NCBI RefSeq assembly: GCF_004138125.1
Contig: NZ_RXHS01000002.1
Coordinates: 1-64,000 of the forward strand
Origin: Seramator thermalis
Lineage (GTDB): Bacteria; Bacteroidota; Bacteroidia; Bacteroidales; Dysgonomonadaceae
Direction: 5' to 3'
DNA: 64,000 nt
Each line of letters starts with the position of its first letter. Position 1 is the first letter of the stretch. This document shows positions 30,885 to 52,996 of the stretch, piece by piece. The translations under genes and the position numbers were made by a program. The notes beneath the pieces are model-generated. The model had not been told where the DNA came from, did no database searches, and worked only from the letters and a program-made list of their open reading frames with translations.

Positions 30885-30891
30885 CAAATGA

Positions 30892-30924
30892 TTTGATTGA
30901 AATAAATTTCAAACACTAATTTTG
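30892..30924 (+). promoter_or_regulatory. gcvH promoter
   Basis: TTTG (30892-30895), 21 nt, then TAATTTTG (30917-30924): a full match to the Bacteroidota consensus. It lies about 60 nt before the gcvH start at 30985. Confidence 0.6.
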
Positions 30925-30984
30925 AAATAAAGAGATAACGTATTAATTTTACTTCTTTAAATAACTCCTTAAAACAGAAGAATT

Positions 30985-31365: not shown

Positions 31366-31383
31366 TTCATTGCAAATCAATCA

Positions 31384-31412
31384 GGGGAGATCGAAATTCG
31401 GTCTCCTTTTTA
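31384..31412 (+). terminator. Hairpin terminator after gcvH
   Basis: GGAGATCGAA pairs with TTCGGTCTCC (one G-T wobble) and is followed by TTTTT. purE begins 16 nt later, so its transcription depends on readthrough or its own promoter. Confidence 0.7.
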
Positions 31413-31427
31413 ATTCCGAGATAAATT

Positions 31428-31934: not shown

Positions 31935-32050
31935 ATGCTCTCTTTTTTTGTTGTGCGAATGAGTGTTTTTTCTTTAAATTTCTCAAAGAGGTGGGCAGTT
32001 AGTCCCGATCTTTTTGGGGAATAATTTGTTTTCGGTTTGTCATAATGATT

Positions 32051-32128
32051 GCGCTTACTCAAAACAATTATTACAAACGTTGATATATAACGATATTCCA
32101 TCTTCGTTTGTAACGCTTTTTTGAGCGC
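32051..32128. repeat. Nested inverted repeat (about 78 bp)
   Basis: The outer arms, GCGCTTACTCAAAA (32051-32064) and TTTTGAGCGC (32119-32128), pair apart from a TTA bulge. The inner arms, TTACAAACG (32071-32079) and CGTTTGTAA (32105-32113), pair perfectly. It lies between convergent purE and the GH16 gene. It may be a compound bidirectional terminator, a structured RNA or a small palindromic mobile element. Confidence 0.6.
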
Positions 32129-32190
32129 ATTGGCATATATCTCAATGTTTCATTAGTGATACTAATTCTGTGTTTATTTGTTGGCTGGAA

Positions 32191-36900: not shown

Positions 36901-37128
36901 GTACTGGCAGAGTTGGCGCAAAACCTAAAAAAAGAGACAAAGAACTATGCCAATATGAAAGCCTATTCGTCCGCTTTTCAGTTAGCCATTGAGAGTGTCA
37001 TCGGTAAATCGCAAGAGGTAGGTGCTGCTTCGTTTTTCTCTACAGAGTTAGTTTCGCTCAATGCCGAAGGGGTTACCTCACAAAGCGATTTTGATATTGT
37101 GGCATTTGTTGTTGTCAAGCGGAAATAA
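33928..37128 (+). CDS. SNF2-type helicase of the defence operon
   Basis: A superfamily 2 ATPase of 1066 residues. The N-terminal ~210 residues (RLDSNTSVSVSTGMFSIYAF) resemble the PLD-like or sensor domain of related helicases, but no HxK(x)4D catalytic motif is visible. The motor begins near 255: Walker A DSVGLGKTFEA near 266, DESH near 353, SATP near 392, motif V with SEGQNLQDCD near 778, and motif VI QRFGRIDRLG near 801. It is not a HsdR-like subunit, since no PD-(D/E)XK motif is seen. DISARM and related systems use SNF2 proteins of this sort with a methylase. A role in translocating on or sensing foreign DNA is inferred. It is followed at 56 nt by the AbiEi-like gene. Confidence 0.85.
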   Translation: MEILDNKQGRTVEHEIAKRLDSNTSVSVSTGMFSIYAFYLLREKMKHTKGLKILLLSNPQTKNPQGVSIALDNTFWGTAEEGGLKRQLLLRYAAEECTHILERSRIRALRVPNSFGFKLIFIQNEHDSCVINPGMADFCADSLGFINSEKPQLHILHNKKEEVAQYKQMFDGIWSDTSMSKEITKLALDELKKGFKDYSPDAVYYMILHHLFHYSIVDFADDKIFKSRTGFKDKEIWNKLYKFQKDGVMGAIEKIEKYGGCIIADSVGLGKTFEALAVIKYYELRNDRVLVLCPKKLRDNWTVYTQNDKRNILINDRFNYDVLSHTDLTRVRGKSGDIDLATINWSNYDLVVIDESHNFRNSYPSKGEMTRYARMMNEVIKKGVKTKLLMLSATPVNNRMNDLKNQISFITEGDDSVFEEEGIDNISNVMKLAQRQFSDWAKYSDRNINELFDRLDNRYFKLLDMLTIARSRKHIVKYYDSADVGRFPTRLRPINEKTDIDSQRLFPSLRNINNAIRKLNLANYSPVSSLKEEKKAEYAAKYDYQLSTGSVFTQSDREKNLVDLMRVNYLKRMESSIYSFYLSVKALLEQVNQNLYKIEHIAELSDKSITIDSIDLEEDESDYLIGNKVKVLLQDIDLVKWRQELEYDRDTLTKLMESAATISAARDEKLTRLKEVIARKIENPINEDNKKVIVFTAFADTATYLYQELSEWILDEYGLFTALIKGSGTNKTNFPDIERKEMNELLTHFSPYSKERDKTYPNVKREIDLLIATDCISEGQNLQDCDYLVNYDIHWNPVRIIQRFGRIDRLGSKNEQIQLVNFWPNMELNEYINLESRVKGKMVLLDISATGEENLIEMNENDEMTDLEYRRKQLEQLQSTVLDLEDIQGGITITDTNMNDFRMDIMEYEKKHLADLQDIPLGIHTVVETDDEEIPPGTIFCMRSSVQQKGQSLLAPYYLVYMGEGGEPVLGYMQGKRCLDYLKKLCQGKTEVLAELAQNLKKETKNYANMKAYSSAFQLAIESVIGKSQEVGAASFFSTELVSLNAEGVTSQSDFDIVAFVVVKRK

Positions 37129-37141
37129 TTCTTTATCTTTG
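37105..37141 (+). promoter_or_regulatory. Promoter before the AbiEi-like antitoxin gene
   Basis: TATCTTTG (37134-37141) matches TAnnTTTG. TTTG/TTG elements at 37105-37114 lie 19-25 nt upstream. It overlaps the end of the helicase gene and places the start site inside the inverted repeat at 37141-37167. Confidence 0.55.
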
Positions 37142-37167
37142 TCCGAAATCTACCGAATATTTCGGAC
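37141..37167. promoter_or_regulatory. Inverted-repeat operator for the AbiE-like module
   Basis: GTCCGAAAT (37141-37149) and ATTTCGGAC (37159-37167) form a perfect 9-bp inverted repeat with a 9-nt spacer. It covers the predicted transcription start and ends 17 nt before the antitoxin ATG. AbiEi antitoxins bind inverted repeats to repress their own promoter, so this fits an autoregulatory operator. Confidence 0.6.
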
Positions 37168-37184
37168 AATATTATTGGGGTTTA

Positions 37185-37805
37185 ATGATGGAAGAGAATA
37201 TTTCACAAAAAGTTAGAGATCGAGTAACTCGCTTTAAGAAAGGCGATTTGTTCACTGTGCGTGATTTTGAAGATTTAAATAATGATAGCCTTGTTACCCG
37301 AACGTTATCCCGTCTGCAAAATGAAGGCATCATTGTTCGTGTGGCAACCGGCATCTATATGAATCCCATAAAAACGCAATTTGGTGTTCTGCACCCTACG
37401 ATTGACCAAATTGCCCACAAAATAGCCGAACGAGACAGGGCTCAGATTATGCCAACCGGTGATACTGCCTTAAATATTTTGGGCTTTTCTACTCAAGTAC
37501 CGATGAACGCCGTATATATTACCAACGGAGCTAAGCGAAAAGTGCAAGTTGGCGAAAGAAATATTATTTTCAAAAATGTTGTTCAGAAAAACTTTCAATT
37601 CAAGGGTAAGCTTCTGCCATTGATAATTATTGCACTAAAAGAACTTGGAGAAAATCAGGTAACGGACGAAATAAAGGACAAAATAAGTAAGCTTCTTTCG
37701 GAGAGTGATGCCGAAGAGCGAGCAACAATGATGCACGATTTATACCTGTCGCCGGTATGGATGAAAGAATTGCTATTACCAATCATAAAAACAGTAACAG
37801 AATGA
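37185..37805 (+). CDS. DUF6088 / AbiEi-like antitoxin
   Basis: A 206-residue type IV antitoxin-like protein. The N-terminal winged helix (about 1-60, GDLFTVRDFEDL...VTRTLSRLQNEGIIVRV) is for DNA binding. The rest (AERDRAQIMPTGDTALNILG and GAKRKVQVGERNIIF) matches DUF6088 proteins, which are often encoded beside AbiEii toxins. Its stop overlaps the toxin start (ATGA at 37802-37805), a hallmark of coupled translation. It has its own promoter and operator. In AbiE systems the antitoxin represses the operon and counters the toxin without stable binding. That behaviour is known for the family and inferred here. Confidence 0.85.
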   Translation: MMEENISQKVRDRVTRFKKGDLFTVRDFEDLNNDSLVTRTLSRLQNEGIIVRVATGIYMNPIKTQFGVLHPTIDQIAHKIAERDRAQIMPTGDTALNILGFSTQVPMNAVYITNGAKRKVQVGERNIIFKNVVQKNFQFKGKLLPLIIIALKELGENQVTDEIKDKISKLLSESDAEERATMMHDLYLSPVWMKELLLPIIKTVTE

Positions 37806-38794
37806 GTATTTGGCTGAATTATAGCGAAGATGAAAAAATGGTTTTGCTACAACAAACAGCAGTGGCCAGAAAAATTTCAGCAGAACAGGCAATTGAAAAG
37901 GATTGGTGGGTAACGGCCATTTTGGTAGCATTGTCAAAATCTTCGTGGGCGGATTTTCTGCAATTCAAAGGAGGAACTTCGCTCAGCAAAGCGTGGGGAT
38001 TGATTAGTCGCTTCAGTGAAGATATAGATTTGACTATAAGTCGTTCGTTTTTCGATCTACCTGAAGAAACCAATCAGCAACGAACAAAAATTCGCCGAGA
38101 AGCTTTCCATTACATAGAAGAGAAGTTGCTCCCCGAGTTAGATAGCATACTTTCTTCAGAAGGAATAACAGGTTATAAAGTTGAGCTTGTTACAAAAAAC
38201 AGTAGCGATATGGTAACTTTAGTAGAAGTAAAATACAAAAGTATTCTTCCGACTAAAATAGATTACCTCCTTCCGGTTGTCAAGATTGAGTTCAGTGCCA
38301 TGTCTCTTGACGAGCCGTTTGAAAATCGAGAAATTGCAACGCTTATCCATTCCCGGTTTCCTGAAATTGATAGCGAAATAAAGTCACTTTTTAAGTCTGT
38401 ATTGCCTGAACGCACCTTTTTGGAAAAAATATTCTTGTTGCACGAGGAGTATCAAAAGGAAAATCCACGCACGGATAGGATGTCAAGACATTTATACGAT
38501 TTGGAAAAGATGATGGATAGCTCTTTCGCTCAATCAGCGTTGCAAGATACGGACTTATACAAAGCCGTTGTCAATCATCGTCAAAAGTTCAACAGCATAA
38601 AGGATGTTGACTATACAACACACGAACCTGCTCAGATCCGGATTTGTCCTCCCGACCACTTGATGGGGAGTTGGAGAAAAGATTACGAAAACATGAAAGA
38701 GAGTTTCATTTATGATAAAGACAAAAAAACATTCGATAAACTTATCGAGAGGATGGAAGAGCTTACCGACAGGATAAGAAAAATCAACCTATAA
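37802..38794 (+). CDS. AbiEii/AbiGii-family nucleotidyltransferase toxin
   Basis: A 330-residue nucleotidyltransferase-fold toxin. I start it at the ATG at 37802, which overlaps the antitoxin stop; an upstream ATG at 37757 is in frame but inside the antitoxin gene. The catalytic motif is complete: FKGGTSLSKAWGLISRFSEDIDL (GG-T/S near 57, D-x-D near 74). Enzymes of this family add nucleotides to tRNA acceptor ends or other targets and cause growth arrest. The stop overlaps the DUF4391 start (TAATG at 38792-38796). That tight linkage inside a restriction operon is unusual. Confidence 0.88.
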   Translation: MSIWLNYSEDEKMVLLQQTAVARKISAEQAIEKDWWVTAILVALSKSSWADFLQFKGGTSLSKAWGLISRFSEDIDLTISRSFFDLPEETNQQRTKIRREAFHYIEEKLLPELDSILSSEGITGYKVELVTKNSSDMVTLVEVKYKSILPTKIDYLLPVVKIEFSAMSLDEPFENREIATLIHSRFPEIDSEIKSLFKSVLPERTFLEKIFLLHEEYQKENPRTDRMSRHLYDLEKMMDSSFAQSALQDTDLYKAVVNHRQKFNSIKDVDYTTHEPAQIRICPPDHLMGSWRKDYENMKESFIYDKDKKTFDKLIERMEELTDRIRKINL

Positions 38795-39537
38795 TGATAG
38801 AGTACTTCAACATACCGTCTGGGGCATTAATCAATACGCCTATCAGCAAAAAACTTTTTGCCGAGAAAGCGCCTTTGTCTGCTGGGGAAAAACGGTTGTT
38901 GCGTGAAGAGATAGAAAAGCTCACGATGAAAGGTTTATTGCAGACCCGCACCATTGGATTGGCTGCATACATGGATGATGAACAGGCTTACGACCAAATC
39001 ATCATTGCCGAAGCAAGTATCAAGAATCCGGCTAAAGCGATGCCGGTAGCTACCTTGGTACAGAAAGCCTTTCCTGCTCCGATGTTTTTAGTTATTCATT
39101 GCGACGAAAGTTTTTCTGTGAATTGGTGCGTAAAACGAATCAATCAGGCGGATAAAACAAGGCGGGTGATGGAAGAACAACAAATAACCCGTTTCTTTGT
39201 ACCTGAAGGCGACGATAGCATTATTCGTGCTTGGTTGCCTTCGTTAGATATAGCACGCATCCGCTGTAATTCACTGAAAGAACTATTCGAAGCCTTGGCA
39301 AACCGCCTGTTGATGCTGGCAGTTTCCGACGAGGCAGGTATCTATCTCGAAAGCGACAGGCAGAAAACAGAGCAATACCGTGTCTTGCTGGAACAGTTAA
39401 ATACCAACCGCATGGAACAAAAACGAATAACCGCTGAAGTAAAAGCGGAAACGCAATTCAACCTCCGTTTAAAGCTGACAACAAAACTGAAAGAGTTACA
39501 ACAACAAGAAAAAATATTGAAAAATCAATTGATATAG
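38794..39537 (+). CDS. DUF4391 protein between toxin and Mod genes
   Basis: A 247-residue protein of the DUF4391 family, of unknown function, typically encoded next to type III-like modification genes. The globular part (about 1-190) contains TIGLAAYMDDEQAYDQIIIA and LVIHCDESFSVNWCVKRIN. The last ~50 residues (EQLNTNRMEQKRITAEVK and following) form a coiled coil suited to bind a partner. It overlaps the toxin stop and ends 2 nt before the Mod start, so its level is locked to both. It may be an assembly factor for Mod-Res or a link to the helicase; neither is demonstrated. Confidence 0.8.
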   Translation: MIEYFNIPSGALINTPISKKLFAEKAPLSAGEKRLLREEIEKLTMKGLLQTRTIGLAAYMDDEQAYDQIIIAEASIKNPAKAMPVATLVQKAFPAPMFLVIHCDESFSVNWCVKRINQADKTRRVMEEQQITRFFVPEGDDSIIRAWLPSLDIARIRCNSLKELFEALANRLLMLAVSDEAGIYLESDRQKTEQYRVLLEQLNTNRMEQKRITAEVKAETQFNLRLKLTTKLKELQQQEKILKNQLI

Positions 39538-39539
39538 CT

Positions 39540-41480
39540 ATGCAAAAGACAAACATACCGCAAGCCGAGAGCAAAAGTGCCGACTTGGTGGCACAAAATC
39601 TGGAGCAACTGAAACAGATTTTGCCTGAAGTGATAAAAGAAGGTCGTGTGGACTTTGAAGCACTAAATGACCTGTTGGGCAACTATGGCGACACCGCCGA
39701 AGAGCGTTTCTGTCTCAACTGGGCAGGCAAAGCCAACGCACGGCGTGAAGCACAAAAGCGAAGCACGGGAACACTCCGCCCTTGCCCCGAAGAGAGTGTG
39801 GATTGGGATACGACCGATAATCTCTACATTGAGGGCGACAACTTGGAGGTGTTGAAACTTTTGCAAAAGAGCTACCACAGCCGTGTTAAGATGATCTACA
39901 TTGACCCGCCCTACAACACCGGGAAGGACTTCGTGTATAAGGATAACTATGCGGATAACATGAAGAACTATCTGGAGCTGACGGGGCAGGACAAAAAACT
40001 CTCCACCAATACCGAAAGTGACGGGCGCTACCATTCCAACTGGCTGAATATGATGTATCCGAGACTGAAACTTGCTCGCAACCTGTTGACGGATGATGGG
40101 GTGATATTTATTTCGATTGATGATAATGAGGTGGCAAATTTACGGAAAGTTTGTGATGAGATTTTTGGGGAGGAGAATTTTGTGGCACAACTTGTTTGGA
40201 CTAATAAAGAAGGAGGAGGAAGCTCTGATAGCAAATTATTTAGGTTAAAACACGAATATATATTATGTTATTGTAAACAGATAGAACTTGTAGAGGTCAT
40301 AGGATTGCCTGTTGGAAATGAAGACAGGTATAAATCTGAAGATGAATATGTTTCTATTAGAGGGAAGTATTATTTGCAGAAAATGGGCATGGGGTCTATA
40401 CAATACTCTGAATCATTAGATTATCCTATAAAAGCTCCTGATGGAACATTAATAAATCCAATAGATAATAACAATGGGCGAAAAGCTTGTTGGAGATGGT
40501 CAAAGCCTAAATATGATTGGGGAGTAGAAAATGGTTTCATTGTTATAAAGAAAGACAGGGATGGTATCTGGACTGTATATTCTAAACAATATTTGAACTG
40601 CGATAATGAAGGAAATATTATATCAAGGACACAAAGACCAATGGGAGTTATTGATGAATTTTCCAGTACTCAAGGAGCCAAGTTATTGTATAATTTAGGA
40701 TTAGGGGATTACTTTGATTATTCAAAACCAAAAGAACTAATGGAATATTTAATAAATCGATTATCCAACAAAGACTCTCTCATTCTCGACTTCTTCTCCG
40801 GCTCTGCTACCACCGCCCATGCAGTGATGCAACTCAACGCCGAAGATGGAGGTAACCGCAAATACATCTGTGTACAAATACCCGAACCTACGCCTGAAGA
40901 TAGCGAAGCTCGCAAAGCTGGATATACCACCATTCCCGAAATAGCCAAGGAGCGTATCCGCCGTGCAGGTAAAAAAATAATGGAAGAGCAAAAAGCAAAA
41001 GCCGAAAAAGAAGGCGGACTATTTGCTGAAGAAGAGAAGAAATTAGACATCGGTTTCAAAGTATTTAAACTCGACAGCTCAAATATTAATGCTTGGGATA
41101 GCGATCCCGAAAATCTGGAAGCAAGCCTGAGCAACTCGCTGTTTAATATCAAAATAGATAGAAGTGAAGATGATCTGTTGTATGAGATACTGATCAAATA
41201 CGGCATTGAGTTGACCGAAAAGATTAATCGTCACACCATAGATGGAAAAACCGTGTATGAAATGGGTGCCGGTTCGTTGATTGTCTGCTTGGCAGAAAGC
41301 CTATCCACGGCAGTTGCCGACGGTATCGGTAAACTCTACAAAGAGGTAAGCCCCGAAGGAGTGGATGCCAATTGCCGTGTGGTATTCAAAGAAGCCGGGT
41401 TTAATGGTTCGGACGAAGTGAAAACCAATACGCTGCTGATCTTGAAACAGCACGGCATTACGAATGTGGCAACCGTTTAA
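39540..41480 (+). CDS. Type III DNA methyltransferase (Mod)
   Basis: An N6-adenine methyltransferase of beta order, the specificity and modification subunit of type III restriction. At 646 residues it is a typical Mod. The DPPYNTGKDF catalytic motif (DPPY near 122) precedes the AdoMet motif LDFFSGSATTAHAV (near 415), as in beta MTases. The target recognition domain lies between them, about residues 195-410. That stretch (about 40,130-40,785) is clearly more AT-rich than the flanks, pointing to recombinational exchange of specificity. It begins 2 nt after the DUF4391 gene and is followed at 14 nt by Res. Confidence 0.93.
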   Translation: MQKTNIPQAESKSADLVAQNLEQLKQILPEVIKEGRVDFEALNDLLGNYGDTAEERFCLNWAGKANARREAQKRSTGTLRPCPEESVDWDTTDNLYIEGDNLEVLKLLQKSYHSRVKMIYIDPPYNTGKDFVYKDNYADNMKNYLELTGQDKKLSTNTESDGRYHSNWLNMMYPRLKLARNLLTDDGVIFISIDDNEVANLRKVCDEIFGEENFVAQLVWTNKEGGGSSDSKLFRLKHEYILCYCKQIELVEVIGLPVGNEDRYKSEDEYVSIRGKYYLQKMGMGSIQYSESLDYPIKAPDGTLINPIDNNNGRKACWRWSKPKYDWGVENGFIVIKKDRDGIWTVYSKQYLNCDNEGNIISRTQRPMGVIDEFSSTQGAKLLYNLGLGDYFDYSKPKELMEYLINRLSNKDSLILDFFSGSATTAHAVMQLNAEDGGNRKYICVQIPEPTPEDSEARKAGYTTIPEIAKERIRRAGKKIMEEQKAKAEKEGGLFAEEEKKLDIGFKVFKLDSSNINAWDSDPENLEASLSNSLFNIKIDRSEDDLLYEILIKYGIELTEKINRHTIDGKTVYEMGAGSLIVCLAESLSTAVADGIGKLYKEVSPEGVDANCRVVFKEAGFNGSDEVKTNTLLILKQHGITNVATV

Positions 41481-41494
41481 AGAGAGGACGCAGT

Positions 41495-44400
41495 ATGGCT
41501 AAAAATATGACATTAAAATTCGAGAGTCACCTCGAATATCAGGACGACGCAGTAAATAGTATCTGCGATATATTTGAAGGCGAAGAGATTTTCCAAAGCA
41601 ATTTCTCTATCACGCCCATCAAGGGAGAAGAAAGTTCGCTATGGAAAAGCGCTACTATCGGTATCGGCAACTCTTTAAAAATGATTGAGGAAGATATGCT
41701 TGCCAATATGCAGCGCATCCAATTGCGTAACGGCGTGCCGCAATCGACCGCCGAGAGTTTCAAGAAAGAGGGAATGAACTTCTCCGTAGAAATGGAGACC
41801 GGTACAGGTAAAACCTACGTCTATTTGAAAACGATTTTTGAACTCAATAAGCGTTACGGTTTTACCAAGTTTATCATTGTAGTGCCGAGCATCGCCATCA
41901 AAGAGGGTACATACAAATCCTTACAGATCACCAAAGAGCACTTCAAAAGCGAATACGAGAATGTAGTGTACGATTATTTTGTGTACGATGCCGCCAAATT
42001 AGAGCAAGTACGCTCGTTTGCCACGGGTGACAGTATTCAGATTATGGTGATCAATATTGATGCATTCCGCAAAAGTTTCGAAAGTGAAGATGAAAACAGC
42101 AAGTCAAACATTATCCACCGTTACAACGATAAGTTGGGCTACAAACCCATCGACCTGATTAAAGAAACGAATCCGATAGTGATTATCGACGAACCGCAAA
42201 GTGTGGATAATACCGACAAAGCGAAAGAAGCTATCGCTGCGCTCAATCCGCTCTGCTGTTTGCGCTATTCTGCCACACACCGCACACCTTACAACATGAT
42301 GTATAAGCTCGATTCGGTGGATGCTTACGAACTGAAATTAGTAAAACAGATTGAAGTGGCGACTGCTACTGTGGAAGGTTTCCAAAACGATGCGTATATC
42401 GACCTGATAAAAGTGGACAATAAAGCCGGAATTAAAGCACAGGTAGAATTGGATTTTCAAAACAAAGGAAAAGTTAACCGCAAGAAAACGTGGGTAAAGC
42501 AAGGACAGGATTTATTTGATATCACCAAGCGCGAGCAATACGAAGGGTATATCGTGGAAGATATTTGGTACGATGGCGAACGCTGGAATATGTCGTTTAC
42601 AAGCAATGATAAGATTATAGAACAAGGCGTTGTGTCGGGGAGTTTGAGTGACGACCTGCTGAAACGAGAGCAAATACGCATGACCATCGAGGCGCATCTT
42701 GACAAAGAAATAGTGCTCAATCCGCAAGGAATAAAAGTGCTGAGCCTGTTCTTTATCGACAAAGTCGCCAACTACCGGGAGTACGATGCTGAAGGGAATC
42801 GCCAAAACGGGAAGTATGCCCGTATTTTTGAAGAAGAATATAACAACCTGATACAGAAACCGAAATACCGTTCTTTATTTAATGAAATGAAGGACAAGGA
42901 TGTGGATGTTAGCCAGATCCACGATGGATATTTCTCGGTGGATAAGAAAGGGAAAGCCTCGAACAATAAAGATAAATTTGAAGTTTTTGTAGACACCTCC
43001 GGGAAAACGGCTAAAGACGATGATGCGTTCAATCTGATTATGCGCGATAAGGAACGACTGCTGAGCTTCGAAACGCCACTCCGCTTTATTTTCTCCCACT
43101 CCGCCTTGCGTGAGGGTTGGGACAATCCGAATGTGTTCCAAATCTGTACGCTTAACGAAACAACCAAAGAGATAAAGAAACGGCAAGAGATTGGGCGGGG
43201 ACTTCGTTTGTGTGTCAATCAGGACGGCGAACGGGTAAAAGGTTTTGACGTAAACACACTTACTGTGATGGCAAACGAAAGCTATGAAGAGTTCGCCAAA
43301 GCGTTGCAGAATGAAATAGAGGAAGATACCGGAATTAAGTTCGGTTACCTGCATAAACATTCTTTCGCCCGTATTGAAGTAGGTGCGGATCAGGACAAAG
43401 CGATGTATCTGAACGAAGAAAAATCGGTTCGACTTTACGACTATTTCGTGGAGAAAGGCTATGTCAGAGAAGAAGTTGTCAACAAGAAAACCAAAGAGAT
43501 TGCCGCTAAAGTGCAGGAAAAACTGAAAATAGACTTGCGCGACAATCGGGTAGCTATTCCCGAAGAATTTGACTATATTAAAACACCGATTCTGAAAGTA
43601 TTGAAGCGTATCAGCGGAAACTTTATGAATATCAAAAACCGGGACGATGTGCGTCGGGTAACATTCAAGAAAGAGTTTTTTATCAATAACGAAGATTTCA
43701 AGAATCTATGGGATCGGATAAAATACAAAACGACGTACTCCGTAAAAATTGATTCGGACAAATTGATCGATCAATGCGCTCAACGGATATACGAAGAGGT
43801 GGTGGTAGGCAAAGGACGCTTTGTTACCCGCAAAATAAAATTAGCGATTACCGAAGGGGGCGTTCTGGAGGGAGAAGATTCTCCTCGTGAATCGACACGG
43901 ATTATGGACGATACGGTTTCGATACTGCCGGATATTGTTACTTACCTGCAAAACGAGACCGGACTGACCCGTCAATCCATCGTTTCCATCTTGATTGGGA
44001 GCAAACGCCTGGAAGCGTTTAAGAAAAATCCTCAAGCCTTTATCGAATCGGTTATTGATATCATTCGTAACGAGATGCGCCTCTTATTGGTTGATGGCAT
44101 CAAATACAAGCGGATAGATAAGGATATGTGGTGTCAGGAACTGTTTGAAAACAAAGAGCTGCAAGGTTATCTAAGCAGCAACTTACTGGAAAGTAACAAA
44201 TCACCCTACGATTATGTGATTTATGATTCGGAAACAGAGCGCAGTATGGCACAACGATTTGAAAGCTCCGATAATGTTAAGGTGTTTACCAAACTACCCT
44301 CCTGGTTTAAGATTGATACGCCATTGGGAGCCTATAATCCCGACTGGGCACTTGTTTGGGATGACGGTCACGAGCAGAAACTTTATTTTGTTGTAGAGAC

Positions 44401-44548
44401 TAAGGGCGGTTTGTTTGAAGACGCTATAAAACCAACCGAGAGAGCAAAAATAACCTGTGGCAAGAAACACTTCGCTGCCCTTGAAACCGGAATAAAATTA
44501 GAATTAGCAGATACATTTGATACATTGCAGGGGAAGATCACCTCTTAA
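41495..44548 (+). CDS. Type III restriction subunit (Res)
   Basis: The ATP-dependent helicase-nuclease of the type III system. The 1017 residues contain Walker A METGTGKTYVYLK near 100, the DEAD-box-like IIDEPQSVD near 231, motif VI-like KRQEIGRGLRLCVNQDGE near 565-582, and a C-terminal PD-(D/E)XK site: NPDWALVWDD near 948 and VVETKGG near 967. It forms a complex with Mod and cuts after ATP-driven communication between two head-to-head sites. It is the last gene of the operon. The length and motifs are complete, so it is probably active. Confidence 0.92.
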   Translation: MAKNMTLKFESHLEYQDDAVNSICDIFEGEEIFQSNFSITPIKGEESSLWKSATIGIGNSLKMIEEDMLANMQRIQLRNGVPQSTAESFKKEGMNFSVEMETGTGKTYVYLKTIFELNKRYGFTKFIIVVPSIAIKEGTYKSLQITKEHFKSEYENVVYDYFVYDAAKLEQVRSFATGDSIQIMVINIDAFRKSFESEDENSKSNIIHRYNDKLGYKPIDLIKETNPIVIIDEPQSVDNTDKAKEAIAALNPLCCLRYSATHRTPYNMMYKLDSVDAYELKLVKQIEVATATVEGFQNDAYIDLIKVDNKAGIKAQVELDFQNKGKVNRKKTWVKQGQDLFDITKREQYEGYIVEDIWYDGERWNMSFTSNDKIIEQGVVSGSLSDDLLKREQIRMTIEAHLDKEIVLNPQGIKVLSLFFIDKVANYREYDAEGNRQNGKYARIFEEEYNNLIQKPKYRSLFNEMKDKDVDVSQIHDGYFSVDKKGKASNNKDKFEVFVDTSGKTAKDDDAFNLIMRDKERLLSFETPLRFIFSHSALREGWDNPNVFQICTLNETTKEIKKRQEIGRGLRLCVNQDGERVKGFDVNTLTVMANESYEEFAKALQNEIEEDTGIKFGYLHKHSFARIEVGADQDKAMYLNEEKSVRLYDYFVEKGYVREEVVNKKTKEIAAKVQEKLKIDLRDNRVAIPEEFDYIKTPILKVLKRISGNFMNIKNRDDVRRVTFKKEFFINNEDFKNLWDRIKYKTTYSVKIDSDKLIDQCAQRIYEEVVVGKGRFVTRKIKLAITEGGVLEGEDSPRESTRIMDDTVSILPDIVTYLQNETGLTRQSIVSILIGSKRLEAFKKNPQAFIESVIDIIRNEMRLLLVDGIKYKRIDKDMWCQELFENKELQGYLSSNLLESNKSPYDYVIYDSETERSMAQRFESSDNVKVFTKLPSWFKIDTPLGAYNPDWALVWDDGHEQKLYFVVETKGGLFEDAIKPTERAKITCGKKHFAALETGIKLELADTFDTLQGKITS

Positions 44549-44617: not shown

Positions 44618-44851
44618 ATGTCTATGAATGATTTAACAACCAAGGAGTTTTTCAGACTATTGTCTGAACCTTCGCAAGTATCGAACAAAGAAATCCAAAC
44701 TTCGTATGAATCTTTTGTTAAGCAGATTACAGAAACAAGCAACTCAGAGGCAGATTACTCGAAAGTGTTTCGTCTATTGAATCACTCCCGTATCGAGATA
44801 GATTCAATAAAAACATCATCACTTTACGAGTCGGGGGGGGGATATGATTAA
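44618..44851 (+). pseudogene. 5' part of an RteC-like gene, split at a G9 tract
   Basis: A 77-residue frame that ends just after a run of nine Gs (44833-44841). Its last codons read through the G-run and stop at 44849-44851. Removing one G would put this frame in phase with the next gene, giving one protein of about 215 residues, close to the size of RteC regulators. It has no motif of its own (EFFRLLSEPSQVSNKEIQTS). It is either a true frameshift, a phase-variable switch or a sequencing error in the homopolymer. Confidence 0.5.
44833..44841 (+). repeat. G9 homopolymer at the split between two frames
   Basis: Nine consecutive Gs lie two nucleotides before the ATG at 44844. Runs of this length slip during replication and are a common basis of phase variation. 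The frame arithmetic is -1 G (or +2) to fuse the upstream and downstream frames. Confidence 0.8.
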
Positions 44852-45263
44852 GTTTAATTACATCCGAAAGGCTTTGAGCTTTCTACATTCTGAAATGGAA
44901 TTGCTAAAACTAAAGATACAATACCCGGAAAGATTTTCTCTAACAGAAGAACTATCGTTTAAGTCGGAACTCTATGTAATCCCCAAAGCAAAAGGACTGG
45001 GAATTATCGGGTTGGCGGAATTAGTGATGAGTATTTTTCTTTCAAAAGAAATAAAAAACCGAAACGGTAAACCTGCATCTTTGGTGCAATTGGCAAGAGC
45101 TTTTGAATATGTTTTCAATTGCAATTTTGGAAGCATATACGATAAGCAGGCAGAGATTTATAATCGAAAATCTTGTAACCTGACAAAATCATTAGATTTC
45201 CTCAAAGGAAGCTTGGAACGAAGTCGGAAAATCAAGCCTTTGAAACAAAATGAAAAAGAATGA
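44844..45263 (+). CDS. RteC-like C-terminal domain protein
   Basis: A 139-residue protein whose second half resembles the C-terminal domain of RteC, the regulator of excision genes in CTnDOT-type elements: SLVQLARAFEYVFNCNFGSI and RKSCNLTKSLDFLKGSLERS follow the family pattern. The start is 2 nt after the G9 run, which could also serve as a purine-rich leader. It lacks the N-terminal part unless fused to the upstream frame by a slip at the G-run. It precedes the HTH/primase genes, the expected place for an excision regulator. The match is by motif memory, not alignment. Confidence 0.55.
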   Translation: MIKFNYIRKALSFLHSEMELLKLKIQYPERFSLTEELSFKSELYVIPKAKGLGIIGLAELVMSIFLSKEIKNRNGKPASLVQLARAFEYVFNCNFGSIYDKQAEIYNRKSCNLTKSLDFLKGSLERSRKIKPLKQNEKE

Positions 45264-45305: not shown

Positions 45306-45336
45306 GGGGGAGTAGTTAACTACTCCCCCTGTTTTT
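45306..45336 (+). terminator. Perfect palindromic terminator before the HTH gene
   Basis: A perfect 24-nt palindrome (45306-45329; GGGGGAGTAG arm) is followed by TGTTTTTG. It lies 42 nt after the RteC-like gene and separates it from the excisionase-like gene. Confidence 0.8.
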
Positions 45337-45383: not shown

Positions 45384-45743
45384 ATGGATGTCATAACAAT
45401 AGAATCGCAGGCGTATAAAGATTTAGTCACAAAGATTAATGCCATAGCAAAGTTTGTCGTAGATCATCAGGATGATGATACAGTCAACCCTGATGAAATG
45501 TGGGTGGATAGTTACGAAGTTTGCACCTTTCTCAAAATCAGTGAGAGAACACTTCAACGCTTACGAAGCAATCGACTGATCTCATATTCAATCATTTCAG
45601 GAAAATCATATTACACCATTGCGGAAATTAAGCGAATGCTTAATGAGAAGAGAATCCGCAGTACCGAAGAATGTATGAATGACCTCATAAATAATCATAA
45701 ACTATATGCTCAACAAAGACGAACTATTAAGACAGACAAATAA
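45384..45743 (+). CDS. Excisionase-like HTH protein (copy 1)
   Basis: A 119-residue helix-turn-helix protein of the HTH_17/excisionase type. The core reads DSYEVCTFLKISERTLQRLR near 51-70 and SYYTIAEIKRMLNE near 83-96. It is related to the product of 47761-48069 across that core. Proteins of this kind control excision or mobilisation in Bacteroides transposons. Its 3' end overlaps the primase gene start by 38 nt. Confidence 0.8.
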   Translation: MDVITIESQAYKDLVTKINAIAKFVVDHQDDDTVNPDEMWVDSYEVCTFLKISERTLQRLRSNRLISYSIISGKSYYTIAEIKRMLNEKRIRSTEECMNDLINNHKLYAQQRRTIKTDK

Positions 45744-47748
45744 CGGTCTGAATGTATTCAAGCACTATATTTCGGTACAATGGAAAACAGGTCGTAATTT
45801 TCTGAATCCATTGTATGAAGACCGTAAGGCTTCGTGTAATGTGTATTTTGACCGTCGTAACAATATCTATCGCATAAAAGATTTCGGCAATGATAATTAC
45901 AGCGGAGATTGCTTCTTTTTCGTTGGGCAGTTGAAAGGTTTGGATTGCAACAATGGTGCTGACTTCGTTGAAATACTGAAAACCATAAACAGGGATATGT
46001 CTTTAGGATTGGATAGTTCGGACTATGCAACTCATATTCCGCAGTCAGTTCCACAAAAGAATAATTCGACGATCCCGGAACTACCCAAAATCAAACCCTA
46101 TAATATCACACAACAGAAGTTTACTCAAAAGGAACTGGATTTTTGGTTAAGGTCAGGTATCACTCCCGAAATACTGAAACTATACAGAGCCGTATCCCTG
46201 AAAGAGTTTAGAAGCGAAAATAAGGACGGAAAATCGTTCTCTTACACTTCATCGGAGAATGAGCCGCTATTTGGGTACATAGGTAAACGATATGTAAAAA
46301 TCTACCGTCCATTTTCGGAAGTACGTTTCTTGTATGGCGGGAATATCGGAGATAGTTATTGTTTCGGACTGGAACAATTACCCGCCAAAGGAGATACATT
46401 GTTTATTACCGGTGGAGAAAAAGATGTGATGACACTTGCCGCACATGGCTTCCATGCTATCTGTTTCAACAGCGAAACATCGACCATTCCGACAGGAATA
46501 ATCTATAAACTCACTTTCCGATTCAAACATATTGTACTGCTCTATGATGCGGATAAAACAGGAATAGACAGTGCAATGAAGCATGAAAAAGCCTTGTCGG
46601 AGTATGGCGTTAAACGGCTCGTCTTACCATTGTCAGGCGAAAAGACCGACAAGGATATAACCGATTATTTCCGCAAAGGGAATAACCGCAAAGAGCTTCG
46701 ACAACTATTCATCGACTTTCTTGATAACCTATATAATGAAACAATGACCATGCTTAAATCCTGCGAAATTGATTTCAACAATCCTCCGGCAAAAGCTGAA
46801 GAAGTTATATCTGCCGGCGACGTACCTCTGGGAACACAGGGAAACATCCTTTGCATTACGGGCGGGGAAGGTACGGGGAAAAGCAACTATGTTGCCGCCC
46901 TGATTGCAGGTTCAATCATAAAAGACAACCGTACCATTGATACGTTAGGCGTGAATGTCCGTGATAATTCCGACGGCAAGGCGGTTTTGCTTTACGATAC
47001 TGAACAATCCGAAGTACAGCTTTTCAAAAACGTTTCCAATCTTTTGAAACGAGCCAAACTGAACGAAAAACCGGAAGAACTACGGGCTTTCTCCCTTACT
47101 GGAATGTCCCGGAAAGAACGATTGCAAGCCATAGTTCAGAGTATGGACAAATACCATTATGAATACGAGGGCATACGCTTGGTTGTTATCGACGGTATTG
47201 CGGATTTGGTATCATCAGCCAATGATGAAGTAGAAAGCATCCGTATTATGGACGAACTGTATCGTTTGGCGGGAATATACCGTACTTGTATCGTTTGTGT
47301 GCTTCATTATGTGCCAAATGGATTGAAATTAAGAGGGCATCTCGGTTCGGAATTACAGCGAAAAGCTGCTGCTATCCTAAGTATAGAACTCGATTCGGAA
47401 CCGTCGATATCGGTTGTTAAGGCTCTCAAAGTAAGGGACGGAAGCCCTCTCGACGTTCCTTTGATGCAGTTCTCTTGGGATAAGGAACTGGGAATGCACA
47501 TTTATATCGGTGAAAAGCCACGAGAGGAAAAGGAAAAACGGAAAGAAAAAGAGTTGGCGACAGTTGCCCGTGAGATATTTGGCGTACAAAAGCACTTGAC
47601 TTATATCGACCTGTGCGACCGGATTCAGCAGATTATGGATGTAAAAGAGCGTACTGCCAAAAGCTATATCAAGTATATGCGAGAAAAAGAAATAATCATC
47701 AAAGATCCGTCCAGTCAGAATTATTTTATGATAGGGCATATTATATAA
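45706..47748 (+). CDS. Toprim-primase/RecA-like helicase of a mobile element
   Basis: A 680-residue replication-type protein. The N-terminal ~100 residues (KTGRNFLNPLYEDRKASCNV) resemble a primase zinc-binding/CHC2-like region. A Toprim domain follows: ITGGEKDVMTLAAHG near 235 and LLYDADKTGIDS near 280, with the acidic residues needed for metal binding. The C-terminal part is a RepA/DnaB-like ATPase with Walker A CITGGEGTGKSNYVAAL near 383 and VVIDGIADLVSSAND near 494 as Walker B. Such proteins act in plasmid or transposon replication after transfer. It is flanked by related HTH genes on both sides. Confidence 0.85.
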   Translation: MLNKDELLRQTNNGLNVFKHYISVQWKTGRNFLNPLYEDRKASCNVYFDRRNNIYRIKDFGNDNYSGDCFFFVGQLKGLDCNNGADFVEILKTINRDMSLGLDSSDYATHIPQSVPQKNNSTIPELPKIKPYNITQQKFTQKELDFWLRSGITPEILKLYRAVSLKEFRSENKDGKSFSYTSSENEPLFGYIGKRYVKIYRPFSEVRFLYGGNIGDSYCFGLEQLPAKGDTLFITGGEKDVMTLAAHGFHAICFNSETSTIPTGIIYKLTFRFKHIVLLYDADKTGIDSAMKHEKALSEYGVKRLVLPLSGEKTDKDITDYFRKGNNRKELRQLFIDFLDNLYNETMTMLKSCEIDFNNPPAKAEEVISAGDVPLGTQGNILCITGGEGTGKSNYVAALIAGSIIKDNRTIDTLGVNVRDNSDGKAVLLYDTEQSEVQLFKNVSNLLKRAKLNEKPEELRAFSLTGMSRKERLQAIVQSMDKYHYEYEGIRLVVIDGIADLVSSANDEVESIRIMDELYRLAGIYRTCIVCVLHYVPNGLKLRGHLGSELQRKAAAILSIELDSEPSISVVKALKVRDGSPLDVPLMQFSWDKELGMHIYIGEKPREEKEKRKEKELATVAREIFGVQKHLTYIDLCDRIQQIMDVKERTAKSYIKYMREKEIIIKDPSSQNYFMIGHII

Positions 47749-47760: not shown

Positions 47761-48069
47761 ATGTATATAAGTAAAGAAGATTTTGAAGCCTGGATGGAGC
47801 GAATTATGTATCGATTCGACAAACAAGATAAAACTCTCGATAAAATGAGTAAACACAGGAATATATTAGACGGAGAACTCCTGCTTGATAATCAGGATTT
47901 GTGTATGTTGCTTAATGTCAGCAAACGAACTTTGCAACGGTATCGTGCCACGGGAGAATTGCCGTTTCAAACGCTATATCACAAAACTTATTATAAAGAA
48001 AGTGATGTTCATGCTTTTATTAGAACAAACTTCAACAAAAAAAGGGGAGATAATAACTCTAGCAAGTGA
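47761..48069 (+). CDS. Excisionase-like HTH protein (copy 2)
   Basis: A 102-residue HTH protein, related to the one at 45384-45743: DNQDLCMLLNVSKRTLQRYR corresponds to the HTH of copy 1, and TYYKESDVHAFIRTN to its wing. It begins 12 nt after the primase stop. The two copies probably arose by an old duplication. One may be an excisionase and the other a regulator of the primase gene. Confidence 0.75.
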   Translation: MYISKEDFEAWMERIMYRFDKQDKTLDKMSKHRNILDGELLLDNQDLCMLLNVSKRTLQRYRATGELPFQTLYHKTYYKESDVHAFIRTNFNKKRGDNNSSK

Positions 48070-48164: not shown

Positions 48165-51100
48165 ATGCATATGAGTACAAATTTTTTCTATAAAGAATTA
48201 GGATATGAGCATTTGATAGAATGTTCTGACATATCAGACTCCTACCCTGAATATCAGGAGTTAGAAAAAATTGGAGCAGACAAAATCTATTTTTCAGATA
48301 ATTTCCCTGCAATTCTCTTTAAAGAAGTAGATTCTTTTAATAAAAATGCCCTTAAACAAATTGCAGAAATTCAACATAAGGCATGGAATTACCGAAAGAT
48401 AATGTTTCTTTTTGTTGTATCAGATACGGAAATCAGGATATATAACTGCTACGAGAAACCTCAATATATAAAAGCAGAATCCAGCTATACAAATGAGCTT
48501 AAAGAATATGAAATATTCAGTTGCATTAAGACTGATGAAGATAACTTAAAAGTTCTGATTGAATTATTTTCACGAATAGGAGTAGATTGTGGGCTACTAT
48601 GGACAAGCGATTATGATCTCCGTGAAAAAATCAATATTCAAAAAAGGATAGATAAATATCTGGTTCAAAGTCTTCTTGCGACTTCCAATGCATTAAAGAA
48701 AGATATCTTGGATATCAATATTATTCATGGGCTTCTCATGCGCTCTCTTTTTATTCTTTATTTAGAAGATAAAGGGGCAGCAGAAGAAGCTGGATTATAC
48801 ACAAAGATAAAAAAAGGAGCAAAAAGTTATTTTGATATTTTAGATGACGTTGATGCTACTTATCGTTTATTTATAGAACTGCAAGAACACTTCAATGGTA
48901 ATGTATTCCCAATTATAGAGAATGAACAAAATTTCGTCAATAAAGATCATCTTTCCTTGATAAAGAGATGTTTTATTGATGGTGATATTTCAGGTCAGCC
49001 TAAATTTTTTGATGATTGGCGAATTTTCAAATTTGATTTTATTCAAATTGAATTACTAAGTGAAGTATATGAAAATTTTTTGGGAGAGTTCGCCTCAAAA
49101 AAAGAAAAAGGACAATTCTATACTCCATATACATTAGTTGAACTAATTTTAAACGACAAACTACCAATCAAGAATGAGGTTAATTATAACATTAAGACGT
49201 TAGATATAGCATGTGGTTCGGGGATTTTTTTAGTTGAAAGTTATAAGCGATTAATTCGAAGATGGCAAAATGCAAACCCCGAAAAAGACATCACATTTAA
49301 AGAACTTAAGAATATTCTTGTTGATAATATTTTTGGTATAGAAATCGATCCTTTAGCAATTAAAGTTGCTGCATTTAGTTTATATTTGGCACTTGTCGAA
49401 TATCTTAATCCAAAAACATTATGGATAGACAAACACAATAAATTTCCATATCTAATCAATAATCCTAAAGATAAATCACTGAAAGATAAAGGAGGAAATA
49501 ATCTTTGGTGTAGAGATACTATTGGCGAAGTTAATCCTGATGATTTTACAAAAGTGGATTTAGTTGTGGGCAACCCGCCATTTGGAACTAAAAAACTATC
49601 AAAATCAATAATGGATTATTGTTCCAAATTTGATTTTGGGAAAGAGATGGTTTTGCCATTTATTCATAAATCTGTTGATTTTTGTCCAGCAGGGAGTATT
49701 GCTTTAATTTTCAATACAAAAGTTTTAACTAATACAGAAACCCCTTTTCAGAATTTTAGGAAATGGTTATTTAATGAGAACTATGTAGAAAAAGTTTACA
49801 ACCTATCTATTTTTAGAAAGGTTCCTAAAAATTTTGGTGGACAACTATTTACTTCTGCCGTTGGCCCCATCTGTATTGCATATTTTCAAAATAAACAGCC
49901 CCAAAAGCCTTCTGCCACAATTGAATATTGGGCTCCAAAAACGTATATAAAATCTAATCTAATAGATGGTGTTGTAATAGATAGTACAGATGTAAAATTC
50001 CTTCCGCGTGCTGAATGCCAAATTCCAAATACAAAGATTTGGAAAATTGCAATGTGGGGAAATATTGGTGATTTCTATTTGATAAATAGATTGTCAAATA
50101 TGTCAAATAATGTAAAGAATTTTATTAAAACTAATAGTATAGACTTTGGCGTAGGATTACAGCCTCTAAATAAATCAACAATTAAGCCTATCGTAGATGA
50201 TGAAATCTCCAAATTGCGATTTATTCGTCCAGAAAGGATTCGAAAATATCTAACATTAGAAACGACATTCACAGAACTTAATTCATTACTAAGAGATAAA
50301 GATACAATTAATGAGTATTTAAAATATTACGGTAAAAAAAGCATCACAGAATTACCAACTATAAATGTTTTCAGAAGATTAGGAAACAAAAAGGTATATA
50401 AAGGACCTATATTGCTAATTAAAGAAGGATTTAAGGATAATGAGTTTTGCTCTGGAATTGTTAAATCAAAAGTAGCTTTTAACAGTACAGTTCTTGGATT
50501 ACATTCTGAAAATATAAATAGTTTACGAGTACTATCAGCTATTTTAAACTCAGATTTTGCAGCTTATTTTTTACTAATGATTTCCAGTTCATGGGGGATA
50601 GAGAGAGAACGTATAAAACCTAATGAAGTTTATTTATTACCATTGCAAAATAGAGAATCTGAATATAAAGAATTCATATCTCTACACAAGGAAATAGAAA
50701 ATATTATTGAGTCAGATACACTGTTCCAAGATAGTTTATTAGAAATAGAGGAAAAAATTAAAACTGTAGTTCTCTCTTCTTTGGATATTTCTGTCAGGGA
50801 AAAGTTTATGATAGAGGATTTCCTAAATATTTCAGTAGACCTGTTTTATAAAAAAGAAAAATCAATAGCATTTAACAAGGTATTTCTTGACGAAAATAAA
50901 GCTTATGCTCAAATACTTGCCAATGAGCTAAATGAATTTTATTCTGAAACCAATCATAAGATAAATATAAGTGTTTATGACATACAACGTTCAGAACCAT
51001 TAAATTTGATAGTTATACATTTCGGCAAAATACAAAAAGAAATCGAAGTCAGAGAATCAAAAGAACTAGCTCCTTTGCTAAAAGAATTAGATAAATATTC

Positions 51101-51272
51101 TATCCAAGAAAAGGGTAAAAACATTTATGTACAAAAACAATTTCGTTATTATGACACAGATAAGATTTATTTGATAAAACCTAATCAAAAACGTTTTTGG
51201 ACACGGTCACAAGCAATAGATGATGCTCTTTCTTTAGTCATGGAAATAGCAAATATGGGAGGACAGAAATGA
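48165..51272 (+). CDS. N6-adenine DNA methyltransferase (Eco57I/type IIG-like)
   Basis: A large gamma-type MTase of 1035 residues. The N-terminal ~150 residues (IYFSDNFPAILFKEVDSF and MFLFVVSDTEIRIYN) resemble the REase/helper region of type IIG enzymes but show no clear D-ExK. The MTase region has KGQFYTPYTLVELIL near 315, AdoMet motif I LDIACGSGIFLVES near 346, and NPPFGTKK near 469. A target recognition region follows, up to ~880, then a C-terminal helical part. It overlaps the next gene (ATGA at 51269-51272). The base composition is far more AT-rich than the neighbouring type III operon, so it was acquired separately. ATG codons at 48165 and 48171 are both possible. Confidence 0.85.
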   Translation: MHMSTNFFYKELGYEHLIECSDISDSYPEYQELEKIGADKIYFSDNFPAILFKEVDSFNKNALKQIAEIQHKAWNYRKIMFLFVVSDTEIRIYNCYEKPQYIKAESSYTNELKEYEIFSCIKTDEDNLKVLIELFSRIGVDCGLLWTSDYDLREKINIQKRIDKYLVQSLLATSNALKKDILDINIIHGLLMRSLFILYLEDKGAAEEAGLYTKIKKGAKSYFDILDDVDATYRLFIELQEHFNGNVFPIIENEQNFVNKDHLSLIKRCFIDGDISGQPKFFDDWRIFKFDFIQIELLSEVYENFLGEFASKKEKGQFYTPYTLVELILNDKLPIKNEVNYNIKTLDIACGSGIFLVESYKRLIRRWQNANPEKDITFKELKNILVDNIFGIEIDPLAIKVAAFSLYLALVEYLNPKTLWIDKHNKFPYLINNPKDKSLKDKGGNNLWCRDTIGEVNPDDFTKVDLVVGNPPFGTKKLSKSIMDYCSKFDFGKEMVLPFIHKSVDFCPAGSIALIFNTKVLTNTETPFQNFRKWLFNENYVEKVYNLSIFRKVPKNFGGQLFTSAVGPICIAYFQNKQPQKPSATIEYWAPKTYIKSNLIDGVVIDSTDVKFLPRAECQIPNTKIWKIAMWGNIGDFYLINRLSNMSNNVKNFIKTNSIDFGVGLQPLNKSTIKPIVDDEISKLRFIRPERIRKYLTLETTFTELNSLLRDKDTINEYLKYYGKKSITELPTINVFRRLGNKKVYKGPILLIKEGFKDNEFCSGIVKSKVAFNSTVLGLHSENINSLRVLSAILNSDFAAYFLLMISSSWGIERERIKPNEVYLLPLQNRESEYKEFISLHKEIENIIESDTLFQDSLLEIEEKIKTVVLSSLDISVREKFMIEDFLNISVDLFYKKEKSIAFNKVFLDENKAYAQILANELNEFYSETNHKINISVYDIQRSEPLNLIVIHFGKIQKEIEVRESKELAPLLKELDKYSIQEKGKNIYVQKQFRYYDTDKIYLIKPNQKRFWTRSQAIDDALSLVMEIANMGGQK

Positions 51273-51934: not shown

Positions 51935-51964
51935 TTATTTTTGTTTACAACCAATGATAGAACT

Positions 51965-52996
51965 ATGTATGAAATAGATGAAATCAGTGAACTTTCAAAG
52001 AAAAATCAAAAACTGTTCAATAGAATACAAGGGCAAATAGAGTATTGCTATAATTGTCAGCCTTATGACGAGGGGGAACCTGTTTGGATACATGGAGACC
52101 GTACAGAAATTAGCGAGCTATTATATGATTATAATGTTCCAGAAAACTTACATGAATTATTTGCCAGAAATTTATCATGCAGATGTGGAACATCAGATTT
52201 TTATCCATTTTCAGAAATTGGTCTAAAGACTAAATATGAAATAGAATTAGATAGACATTTTGAATTTGCTAAACGCAAATATGGAAAACCATTAAGCGAA
52301 TTTAAGAACTTAATAATCAAGCATCCTTTTTTATCATTAGATTGTAAAATAGCGAGAGATATTAAGAAAGAAATTGAAGCAAAAAAACTGCCTGTTGAAA
52401 CTGTATCAGGAGAATTTTATCGTTGTCGTAAAGTAGAAAATGACATTGCCTTTGAGACGAAAGATTTAATGCTTGCTCCTATAGGAATACCCAAAGAGGG
52501 ACGCTTCAATCATTCTGGTCAAAGTCATTTATACTTATCTAAAGAAAAAGATACTGCAAAAGCAGAAATCTTAGGAGATACTGAAAAAAGCCGTTTAGTT
52601 TGGATACAAAAAATTGATATTAAAAAACCTATTGAGAACATCCTTGATTTAACTTTCGATTGGACAATGATGACGTTATCTACGCATGCTTTGCTCATTG
52701 CATTGCATACAGGAGGATATTTATCTTGCATAAAAGATAACGAAGGAAATTGGAGACCTGATTACTTCATTACAAGGTTCATCATGGATTGTGCGAAAAA
52801 GGCAGGCTATAACGGAATTAAATATGAATCTGCGCGTAGTTACATCGGCGACAATATTGTACTATTTCATTATTCTGCAGAGAATATTATTTCAGAAGAA
52901 CCTCCTGTTATTGAAACATTTGTTCCTGATTCCAATGAATATCCTATTTTATATAACGGCGATTTATTTGAAGATAAAAGTTTTGGCGATATATAA
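51965..52996 (+). CDS. RES-domain protein with an N-terminal HEPN/zinc-like domain
   Basis: A 343-residue protein. I start it at the ATG at 51965, 30 nt after the nuclease stop; a TTG at 51941 is in frame but weaker. The N-terminus has a zinc-ligand-like CYNCQPYDEG (near 28) and SCRCGTSDFY (near 71), as in HEPN/RES-N proteins. The RES domain spans about 150-315: GEFYRCRKVEND, GRFNHSGQSHLYLSKEKDTA, and FIMDCAKKAGYNGIKYESAR. RES toxins break down NAD+. In isolated RES/Xre modules an antitoxin precedes them; none is here. This suggests an abortive-infection effector coupled to the restriction pair. The domain call is strong, the role inferred. Confidence 0.8.
   Translation: MYEIDEISELSKKNQKLFNRIQGQIEYCYNCQPYDEGEPVWIHGDRTEISELLYDYNVPENLHELFARNLSCRCGTSDFYPFSEIGLKTKYEIELDRHFEFAKRKYGKPLSEFKNLIIKHPFLSLDCKIARDIKKEIEAKKLPVETVSGEFYRCRKVENDIAFETKDLMLAPIGIPKEGRFNHSGQSHLYLSKEKDTAKAEILGDTEKSRLVWIQKIDIKKPIENILDLTFDWTMMTLSTHALLIALHTGGYLSCIKDNEGNWRPDYFITRFIMDCAKKAGYNGIKYESARSYIGDNIVLFHYSAENIISEEPPVIETFVPDSNEYPILYNGDLFEDKSFGDI

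Follow-up and report, generated by a model that had tools for sequence, protein, structure and literature searches.

Introduction

In the IS630 element of Roseiflexus, a TTTTTCCCCC run lies directly 3' of a stem-loop and RNA polymerase omits exactly one C there, one rU:dG pair being tolerated and rC:dA not, as reviewed in PMC5009743. XmYn runs and A/T runs have been described as the slippage-prone types, with adjacent stem-loops noted, and IS1447 of the IS3 family carries a stem-loop with its slippage at A9U (PMC6211511). FseA (msi172/msi171), the excision activator of ICEMlSymR7A, is also made by frameshifting, which was reported to be ribosomal (PMC5009743). At the DNA level, replication slippage was demonstrated for the G-tracts of the Bifidobacterium breve pili (PMC9187656).

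Here we describe a split gene in a window of 64,000 nucleotides of Seramator thermalis (contig NZ_RXHS01000002.1), the whole stretch of DNA that was analysed, in which two reading frames, ORF1 and ORF2, meet at a run of nine Gs. Judging from the sequences of the locus and its relatives, ORF1 and ORF2 probably form one gene whose product would be made via programmed frameshifting, most likely by slippage of RNA polymerase. This family shares with the T5C5 site of the Roseiflexus transposase a 10-nt two-letter run, a hairpin immediately 5' of it, a (here predicted) loss of one nucleotide and a direction set by mismatches. It differs in that the run is purine (G then A) and drifts in composition, G(n)A(m) being the purine counterpart of T5C5, and in that the gene is a Bacteroidales mobile-element regulator with a 24-nt hairpin loop. 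Like FseA, it consists of two ORFs on an integrative element, a +1 shift would make the regulator, and the logic would be that of rare excision; on the other hand, FseA is of an unrelated DUF2285-type family (PMC10359603) and its shift is reported to be ribosomal, whereas our gene is RteC-like in its C-terminal part and its shift is probably transcriptional. IS1447 similarly combines a run, an adjacent stem-loop and transcriptional slippage to a fused product, although its run is homopolymeric A, its slippage is +1 and its product is a transposase. The B. breve pili resemble the window in that a G tract lies between two ORFs and its length sets their fusion, but a conserved out-of-frame state is not reported in the part of that work considered here. 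No mention of RteC frameshifting was found in the main text of the GeneTack survey and other open papers.

The split gene in Seramator thermalis

The sequence at 44833-44841 reads exactly G9 (GGGGGGGGG), followed by A and T, which confirms the joint at which the initial annotation had placed a G9 tract splitting an RteC-like frame. This is the sole G run of seven or more in the window and the sole 9-G run of the 3.0-Mb assembly, in which the remaining sites of eight or more Gs are all 8-mers. Six other G8 tracts lie in the genome at G000:C6:12032, C23:25878, C32:164109, C32:281809, C33:224769 and C37:40071. Read with one base fewer, ORF1 and ORF2 give 214 aa, in agreement with the roughly 215 residues that had been expected from a fusion by loss of one G. 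From its ATG, ORF2 spans 44844-45263 (139 aa) and overlaps ORF1 at the run. The features considered below are as follows.

44618 to 44851, forward strand: ORF1, N-terminal half (77 aa), residues 1-75 of which would be part of the fused protein; kept in 49 relatives
44787 to 44796, forward strand: 5' arm of the conserved stem (alignment A3, columns 19-28), weakened, with 6 of 10 pairs left in the window
44811 to 45263, forward strand: open frame of ORF2, C-terminal half with the RteC domain (Pfam RteC), +1 relative to ORF1
44821 to 44830, forward strand: 3' arm of the conserved stem (alignment A3, columns 53-62), ending 2 nt before the run
44833 to 44842, forward strand: putative slippery run GGGGGGGGGA (ten purines, G9A1), which is the form that the conserved G(n)A(10-n) takes in the window
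45306 to 45329, no strand assigned: 24-bp perfect palindrome GGGGGAGTAGTTAACTACTCCCCC, seen in the sequence as a self-match, then T-rich TGTTTTTG
45384 to 45743, forward strand: HTH_17 (excisionase-like) gene, Pfam HTH_17 4.4e-7
45706 to 47748, forward strand: Toprim / AAA_25 replication-type protein by domain match, a conserved neighbour
47761 to 48069, forward strand: second HTH_17 (excisionase-like) gene by domain match, a conserved neighbour
59481 to 60332, forward strand: tyrosine recombinase (Phage_integrase) of the island by domain match

The palindrome after ORF2 is kept in the four close relatives introduced below (slightly shorter in L015) and is likely the intrinsic terminator of the transcript. 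A search of the locus against Rfam gave just weak sub-threshold matches, the best of them over this palindrome.

Close relatives

Four close relatives emerged from a single scan across contigs of bacterial genomes: Bacteroidaceae bacterium HV4-6-C5C (L012), an uncultured Proteiniphilum (L013), Bacteroidales bacterium 45-6 (L014) and Dysgonomonas sp. Marseille-P4361 (L015, about 70% protein identity). The tract is G9 in the window, L013 and L015 and G10 in L012 and L014, and the two lengths occur among relatives that are 90-95% identical across shared DNA, which bears out the idea that tract length varies in nature. Since G9 or G10 stands at the same joint in four independently sequenced relatives, the tract is real and its length varies by one. 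None of these five homopolymer copies has a length that puts the two ORFs in frame.

Between the window and the close relatives, dN/dS is 0.26-0.33 for ORF1 (L014 and L015) and 0.05-0.13 for ORF2 where changes were countable; between L014 and L015 it is 0.42 and 0.12, respectively. ORF2 is thus under purifying selection even though it is out of frame in every close relative. An untranslatable C-terminal half would not show such constraint. The initial annotation had pointed out that a sequencing or assembly error in the homopolymer would look the same. Homopolymers are indeed error-prone, and one wider relative (L102) has a second frame break downstream, though it is +1 at the run itself. Nevertheless, a decayed gene or a homopolymer assembly error is hardly credible here: the tract is common to independent isolates and assemblies, ORF2 is strongly constrained, and most relatives are split in the same pattern without a long homopolymer. 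An artefact or pseudogene was accordingly rejected on the basis of the independent copies and dN/dS.

Frame and run in the wider family

Besides plasmid records, the search covered 101 genomes from the family and several hundred from the wider order and phylum. The census contains 48 distinct split loci (49 split relatives with L179, which came from the covariance model described below), distributed over Dysgonomonadaceae, other Bacteroidales and human-gut Bacteroides elements. Among the copies from the human gut are one on the tetQ-carrying conjugative transposon CTn214 of B. fragilis (L074) and one on a B. thetaiotaomicron plasmid (L075); in both, the annotation shows two hypothetical proteins. 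The viral contigs contained a single copy, which was damaged.

ORF2 is in the +1 frame in 44 of the 48 split loci, in +2 in three (the two G10 sisters L012 and L014, and L094) and degenerate in one (L102). When the loci were clustered at 80% DNA identity, 26 of the 29 groups were purely +1. No in-frame allele at the DNA level was found among the 49 split homologues. At the joint, 41 of the 48 loci have a 10-nt run of the form G(n)A(10-n), which is a two-letter XmYn run at the frame joint. G5A5 is the commonest composition, G1A9, G2A8, G4A6 and G6A4 also occur, and G9A1 is found in the window's clade. G always precedes A, the end of the run is a codon boundary of ORF1, and the typical context is TACGAGCA-GGGGGAAAAA-TGCC. 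Runs of this kind and length are nearly absent elsewhere within these split loci, and the coincidence of tract and split is thus not a matter of chance. Codons at the shift point vary (GGG GGG GGA; GGG GAA AAA; GAA AAA AAA; AAA AAA AAA). In most relatives the run closes with the zero-frame codon AAA and UGC comes next; in the window these two codons are GGA and UAU; a stop codon (TAA, TGA) stands 3' of the run in some. Over the first 30 nt 3' of the run, codon constraint has already shifted to the frame of ORF2 (third-position mismatch 0.42 versus 0.27 and 0.25).

The initial annotation proposed a candidate phase switch, in which slippage in the G tract could turn excision of the element on and off in a population. 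The G9 and G10 tracts of relatives that are otherwise so similar would suit such replicative phase variation, with the fused regulator on (in frame) or off according to the length of the tract in the DNA, and there is a precedent in B. breve pili, where replication slippage in a G tract joins two ORFs (PMC9187656). However, both lengths are out of frame and an ON allele was seen neither in the five homopolymer copies nor in the 49 homologues, the run is in most homologues a G/A mixture, on which replication slips less readily than on a homopolymer, and both frame offset and run length hold constant between deeply diverged homologues. We therefore regard replicative phase variation as improbable, and as the main mechanism it was rejected by the absence of an in-frame allele together with the like behaviour of mixed-sequence runs. 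A replicative length change may be superimposed in the window's own clade.

Two separate proteins, with ORF2 beginning at its own start and giving a free C-terminal domain whose translation is coupled to ORF1, would be suggested by an ATG in the ORF2 frame just 3' of the run in the window, L012, L013 and L014, and by small Bacteroidales plasmids that carry the ORF1 part alone. On the other hand, this ATG is ATA in L015, and 28 of the 48 split loci lack a start codon (ATG, GTG or TTG) for ORF2 close to the joint; many reach their first ATG more than 100 nt downstream. Moreover, unsplit relatives are a single protein, and a fixed +1 offset with a 10-nt run would be needless for two genes. Separate genes are thus very improbable and were ruled out by the missing start codons. 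The comparison with homologues that the initial annotation had offered as a refutation came out otherwise, as the close relatives fit neither separate genes (ORF2 being often startless) nor a fused gene lacking the homopolymer.

The upstream hairpin

Compared with dinucleotide shuffles, the 60 nt on the 5' side of the run have a more stable fold (mean z -2.0, 40 loci); no structure was found in the downstream RNA by this comparison (z about 0). For the upstream 55 nt, the mean z is -2.19 in split loci versus +0.75 in unsplit relatives, which have no hairpin at the site. An ungapped alignment of 32 loci contains a 10-bp stem, CTCGTATTGA ... TCAGTACGAG, with a 24-nt loop, which ends 2 nt before the run; 90% of its cells are paired, compared with 25-47% when the partner is slid. 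The covariation score of the stem is 0.233 versus 0.166 +/- 0.012, a value reached by none of 500 shuffles. Columns 26 and 55 covary (p 0.00075 on 80% clusters) with the pairs U-A, A-U, C-G and U-G. Because column 26 is a free, synonymous third position of an Ile codon, the matching of these two columns is not due to protein constraint. The stem sequence largely encodes conserved residues (TRIE, YEQ), so its conservation is partly at the protein level; the covarying pairs alone escape this reservation. Covariation at the RNA level also counts against a switch acting on DNA length.

The distant split clades L125/L127 and L076/L105 have a different stem in the same place, and in the distant split relatives L126 and L094 the hairpin is weak or absent. 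A covariance model of the cassette recovered the known copies and one unseen locus, L179 (E 0.35, a weak match on E-values that are rough), which turned out to be a diverged split relative carrying GGGAAAAAAA, with ORF2 in +1. The RNA model R1 matches the window at 44769-44845 (E 2.4e-10, likewise a rough value). In the window's clade, 6-7 of the 10 stem pairs are left and the run has turned into a homopolymer; the upstream folding of the window itself is unremarkable (z about -0.9). Thus, a stem-loop directly 5' of the run is a property of the family that is weakened in the window.

A hairpin 2 nt upstream of the run would lie inside the ribosome while the run is decoded, and at the RNA exit side of RNA polymerase during transcription. 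This matters for programmed +1 frameshifting by the ribosome on the purine run of an unedited mRNA, which we consider unlikely, though less so than the other alternatives. The +1 relation and the kind of host element are those of FseA of ICEMlSymR7A (PMC5009743), and the AAA-UGC of most relatives and the stop after the run in some could favour such a shift. Against it, the shift-point codons change freely while the length stays 10, re-pairing from AAA to AAU is poor, and the 3' arm of the hairpin would fall within the decoding ribosome but fits the exit side of the polymerase.

Unsplit relatives and a possible module boundary

At least eight homologues (206-243 residues) are unsplit: a single frame covers both halves, and the purine run is missing from the joint site. 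The split or unsplit state switches at least four times on the tree. A single frame thus goes with absence of the run and a split frame with its presence, as is predicted if the fusion product is required.

Several loci combine the halves differently. L122 (G478:C22) has a split-type N half and a C half near the unsplit clade; L077 and other Bacteroidales plasmids of about 7 kb (hits H5-H10) have only the N half and the run; and in L073, a contig from a viral collection, the C half follows an N side of foreign origin. On the sequence contig G230:C16 (L158, L119, L120), the N half with hairpin and run is at 98679-98755 and the C half at 68214-68600. This distance of 30 kb on one strand would fit either the insertion of a large element into the gene or the presence of two partial copies. 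The putative slippery site looks like a module boundary.

Proposed mechanism of RNA polymerase slippage

In the mechanism that we favour, RNA polymerase on G(n)A(10-n) would let the nascent transcript realign on the template and would omit one nucleotide in some transcripts, driven in most relatives by the nascent-RNA hairpin that ends 2 nt before the run. On a G-then-A run, forward realignment by one would need a single tolerated rG:dT wobble and insertion would require an rA:dC mismatch, and because of this the shift would be one-directional. Shortened mRNAs would then give the full N+C regulator of about 214 aa, and unslipped mRNAs the short N-terminal protein alone. The regulator may thereby be held at a low, set level that keeps excision and transfer of the element rare. 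Since the run is constant in length, drifts in composition and has a hairpin 2 nt upstream, RNA polymerase would suit the data better than the ribosome. The sequences themselves show a conserved split with its frame, run and hairpin, selection on ORF2, and unsplit relatives that lack the run; the polymerase as the slipping machine, the efficiency of its slippage and the role in excision go beyond them as inferences.

The G10 sisters and L094 would need the opposite direction of shift or two bases, which speaks against the model, as do the weakened stem and unremarkable folding of the window and the weak or absent hairpin of L126 and L094. In the window's clade with its G9 and G10 members, slippage may rest on the homopolymer, with either direction possible and the hairpin weakened, and occasional length changes in the DNA may come on top of transcriptional slippage. 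As neither length restores the frame, and as the family has kept the two ORFs out of frame, G9 and G10 may be read as variants of the recoding site, replication slippage being at most a second layer. Thus, the on/off DNA switch first proposed for this tract is not upheld as the main mechanism, in view of the 49 homologues lacking an in-frame allele, the mixed runs, the conserved +1 offset, the covarying hairpin and the unsplit genes that lack the run.

A broader reading seems to us evenly balanced: the hairpin and G(n)A(10-n) run may be a portable cassette at which the polymerase drops exactly one base in a fixed share of transcripts, acting as a built-in limiter on an excision-type regulator of Bacteroidales mobile elements including human-gut conjugative transposons; N and C modules may be exchanged at this same cassette, which in the lineage of the window may have become a pure G tract subject to both transcriptional and replicative slippage.

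Relation to RteC and genomic neighbourhood

ORF2 matches Pfam RteC (PF09357) with E 2.4e-7 and 31.1 bits against a cut-off of 25.3; ORF1 has no Pfam match. The profile is matched by 6 of 13 fused relatives. The fused window protein covers just profile positions 147-213 of 219, leaving the N-terminal part of the model uncovered, whereas a canonical RteC member checked in full matches 1-219. By hhalign, homology to the canonical profile extends over the C-terminal 75 or so residues (probability 97.5%, E 8e-12, 73 columns). The assignment as an RteC-like regulator therefore holds for the C-terminal domain, which is homologous to that of RteC of CTnDOT-type elements, and fails for the N-terminal half, which is not alignable. 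The canonical RteC relatives compared are unsplit and about 255-290 aa long, unlike the split window gene with its fused 214 aa. Solved structures gave no sequence match to the fused protein, and its AlphaFold model (mean pLDDT 55) was too poor for a fold search; residues 11-100 were moderately modelled, with helices on either side of the joint, which falls between predicted helices.

Housekeeping genes (rpoN, gcvH, purE) occupy 26000-33000 of the window, up to about 33 kb, and an island at 33900-61500 contains a helicase-methylase of 1902 aa, a DUF1896 protein, the tyrosine recombinase and an IS91-type transposase. Transfer genes were not recognised among the genes scanned in the window. Upstream of the split gene (33928-44548) lies a defence-like cluster with an SNF2-type helicase, DUF4391, a type III restriction-modification pair (Mod and Res) and an AbiE-type pair (DUF6088/AbiEi-like and AbiEii). 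Downstream, 48165-51272 encodes a large methyltransferase with weak PglX/MAD2 similarity, and 51941-52996 a RES-domain protein with TTG as its listed start. The HTH_17 gene at 45384-45743 is the next gene downstream in the window and in L012-L015. From the tyrosine recombinase island, this adjoining HTH_17 gene and the RteC-like C-terminal domain, we infer an excision function: the split gene product may regulate excision or transfer of the element in an RteC-like role. Because the RteC match is limited to the C-terminal domain, this role is a presumptive one. By comparison with the frameshifted FseA of ICEMlSymR7A (PMC5009743), the purpose of the frameshift is likely the rationing of this regulator of excision.

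Implications

If the proposed mechanism is correct, a regulator of Bacteroidales mobile elements, including the copy on CTn214, would be made at full length only through molecular slippage, and it would have been missed because databases list two unrelated hypothetical proteins in its place. The principle of FseA, an excision regulator made by frameshifting, would then extend to another phylum and another protein family. Moreover, the G(n)A(10-n) runs, some with a hairpin and some without, would form a natural series for probing slippage of RNA polymerase.
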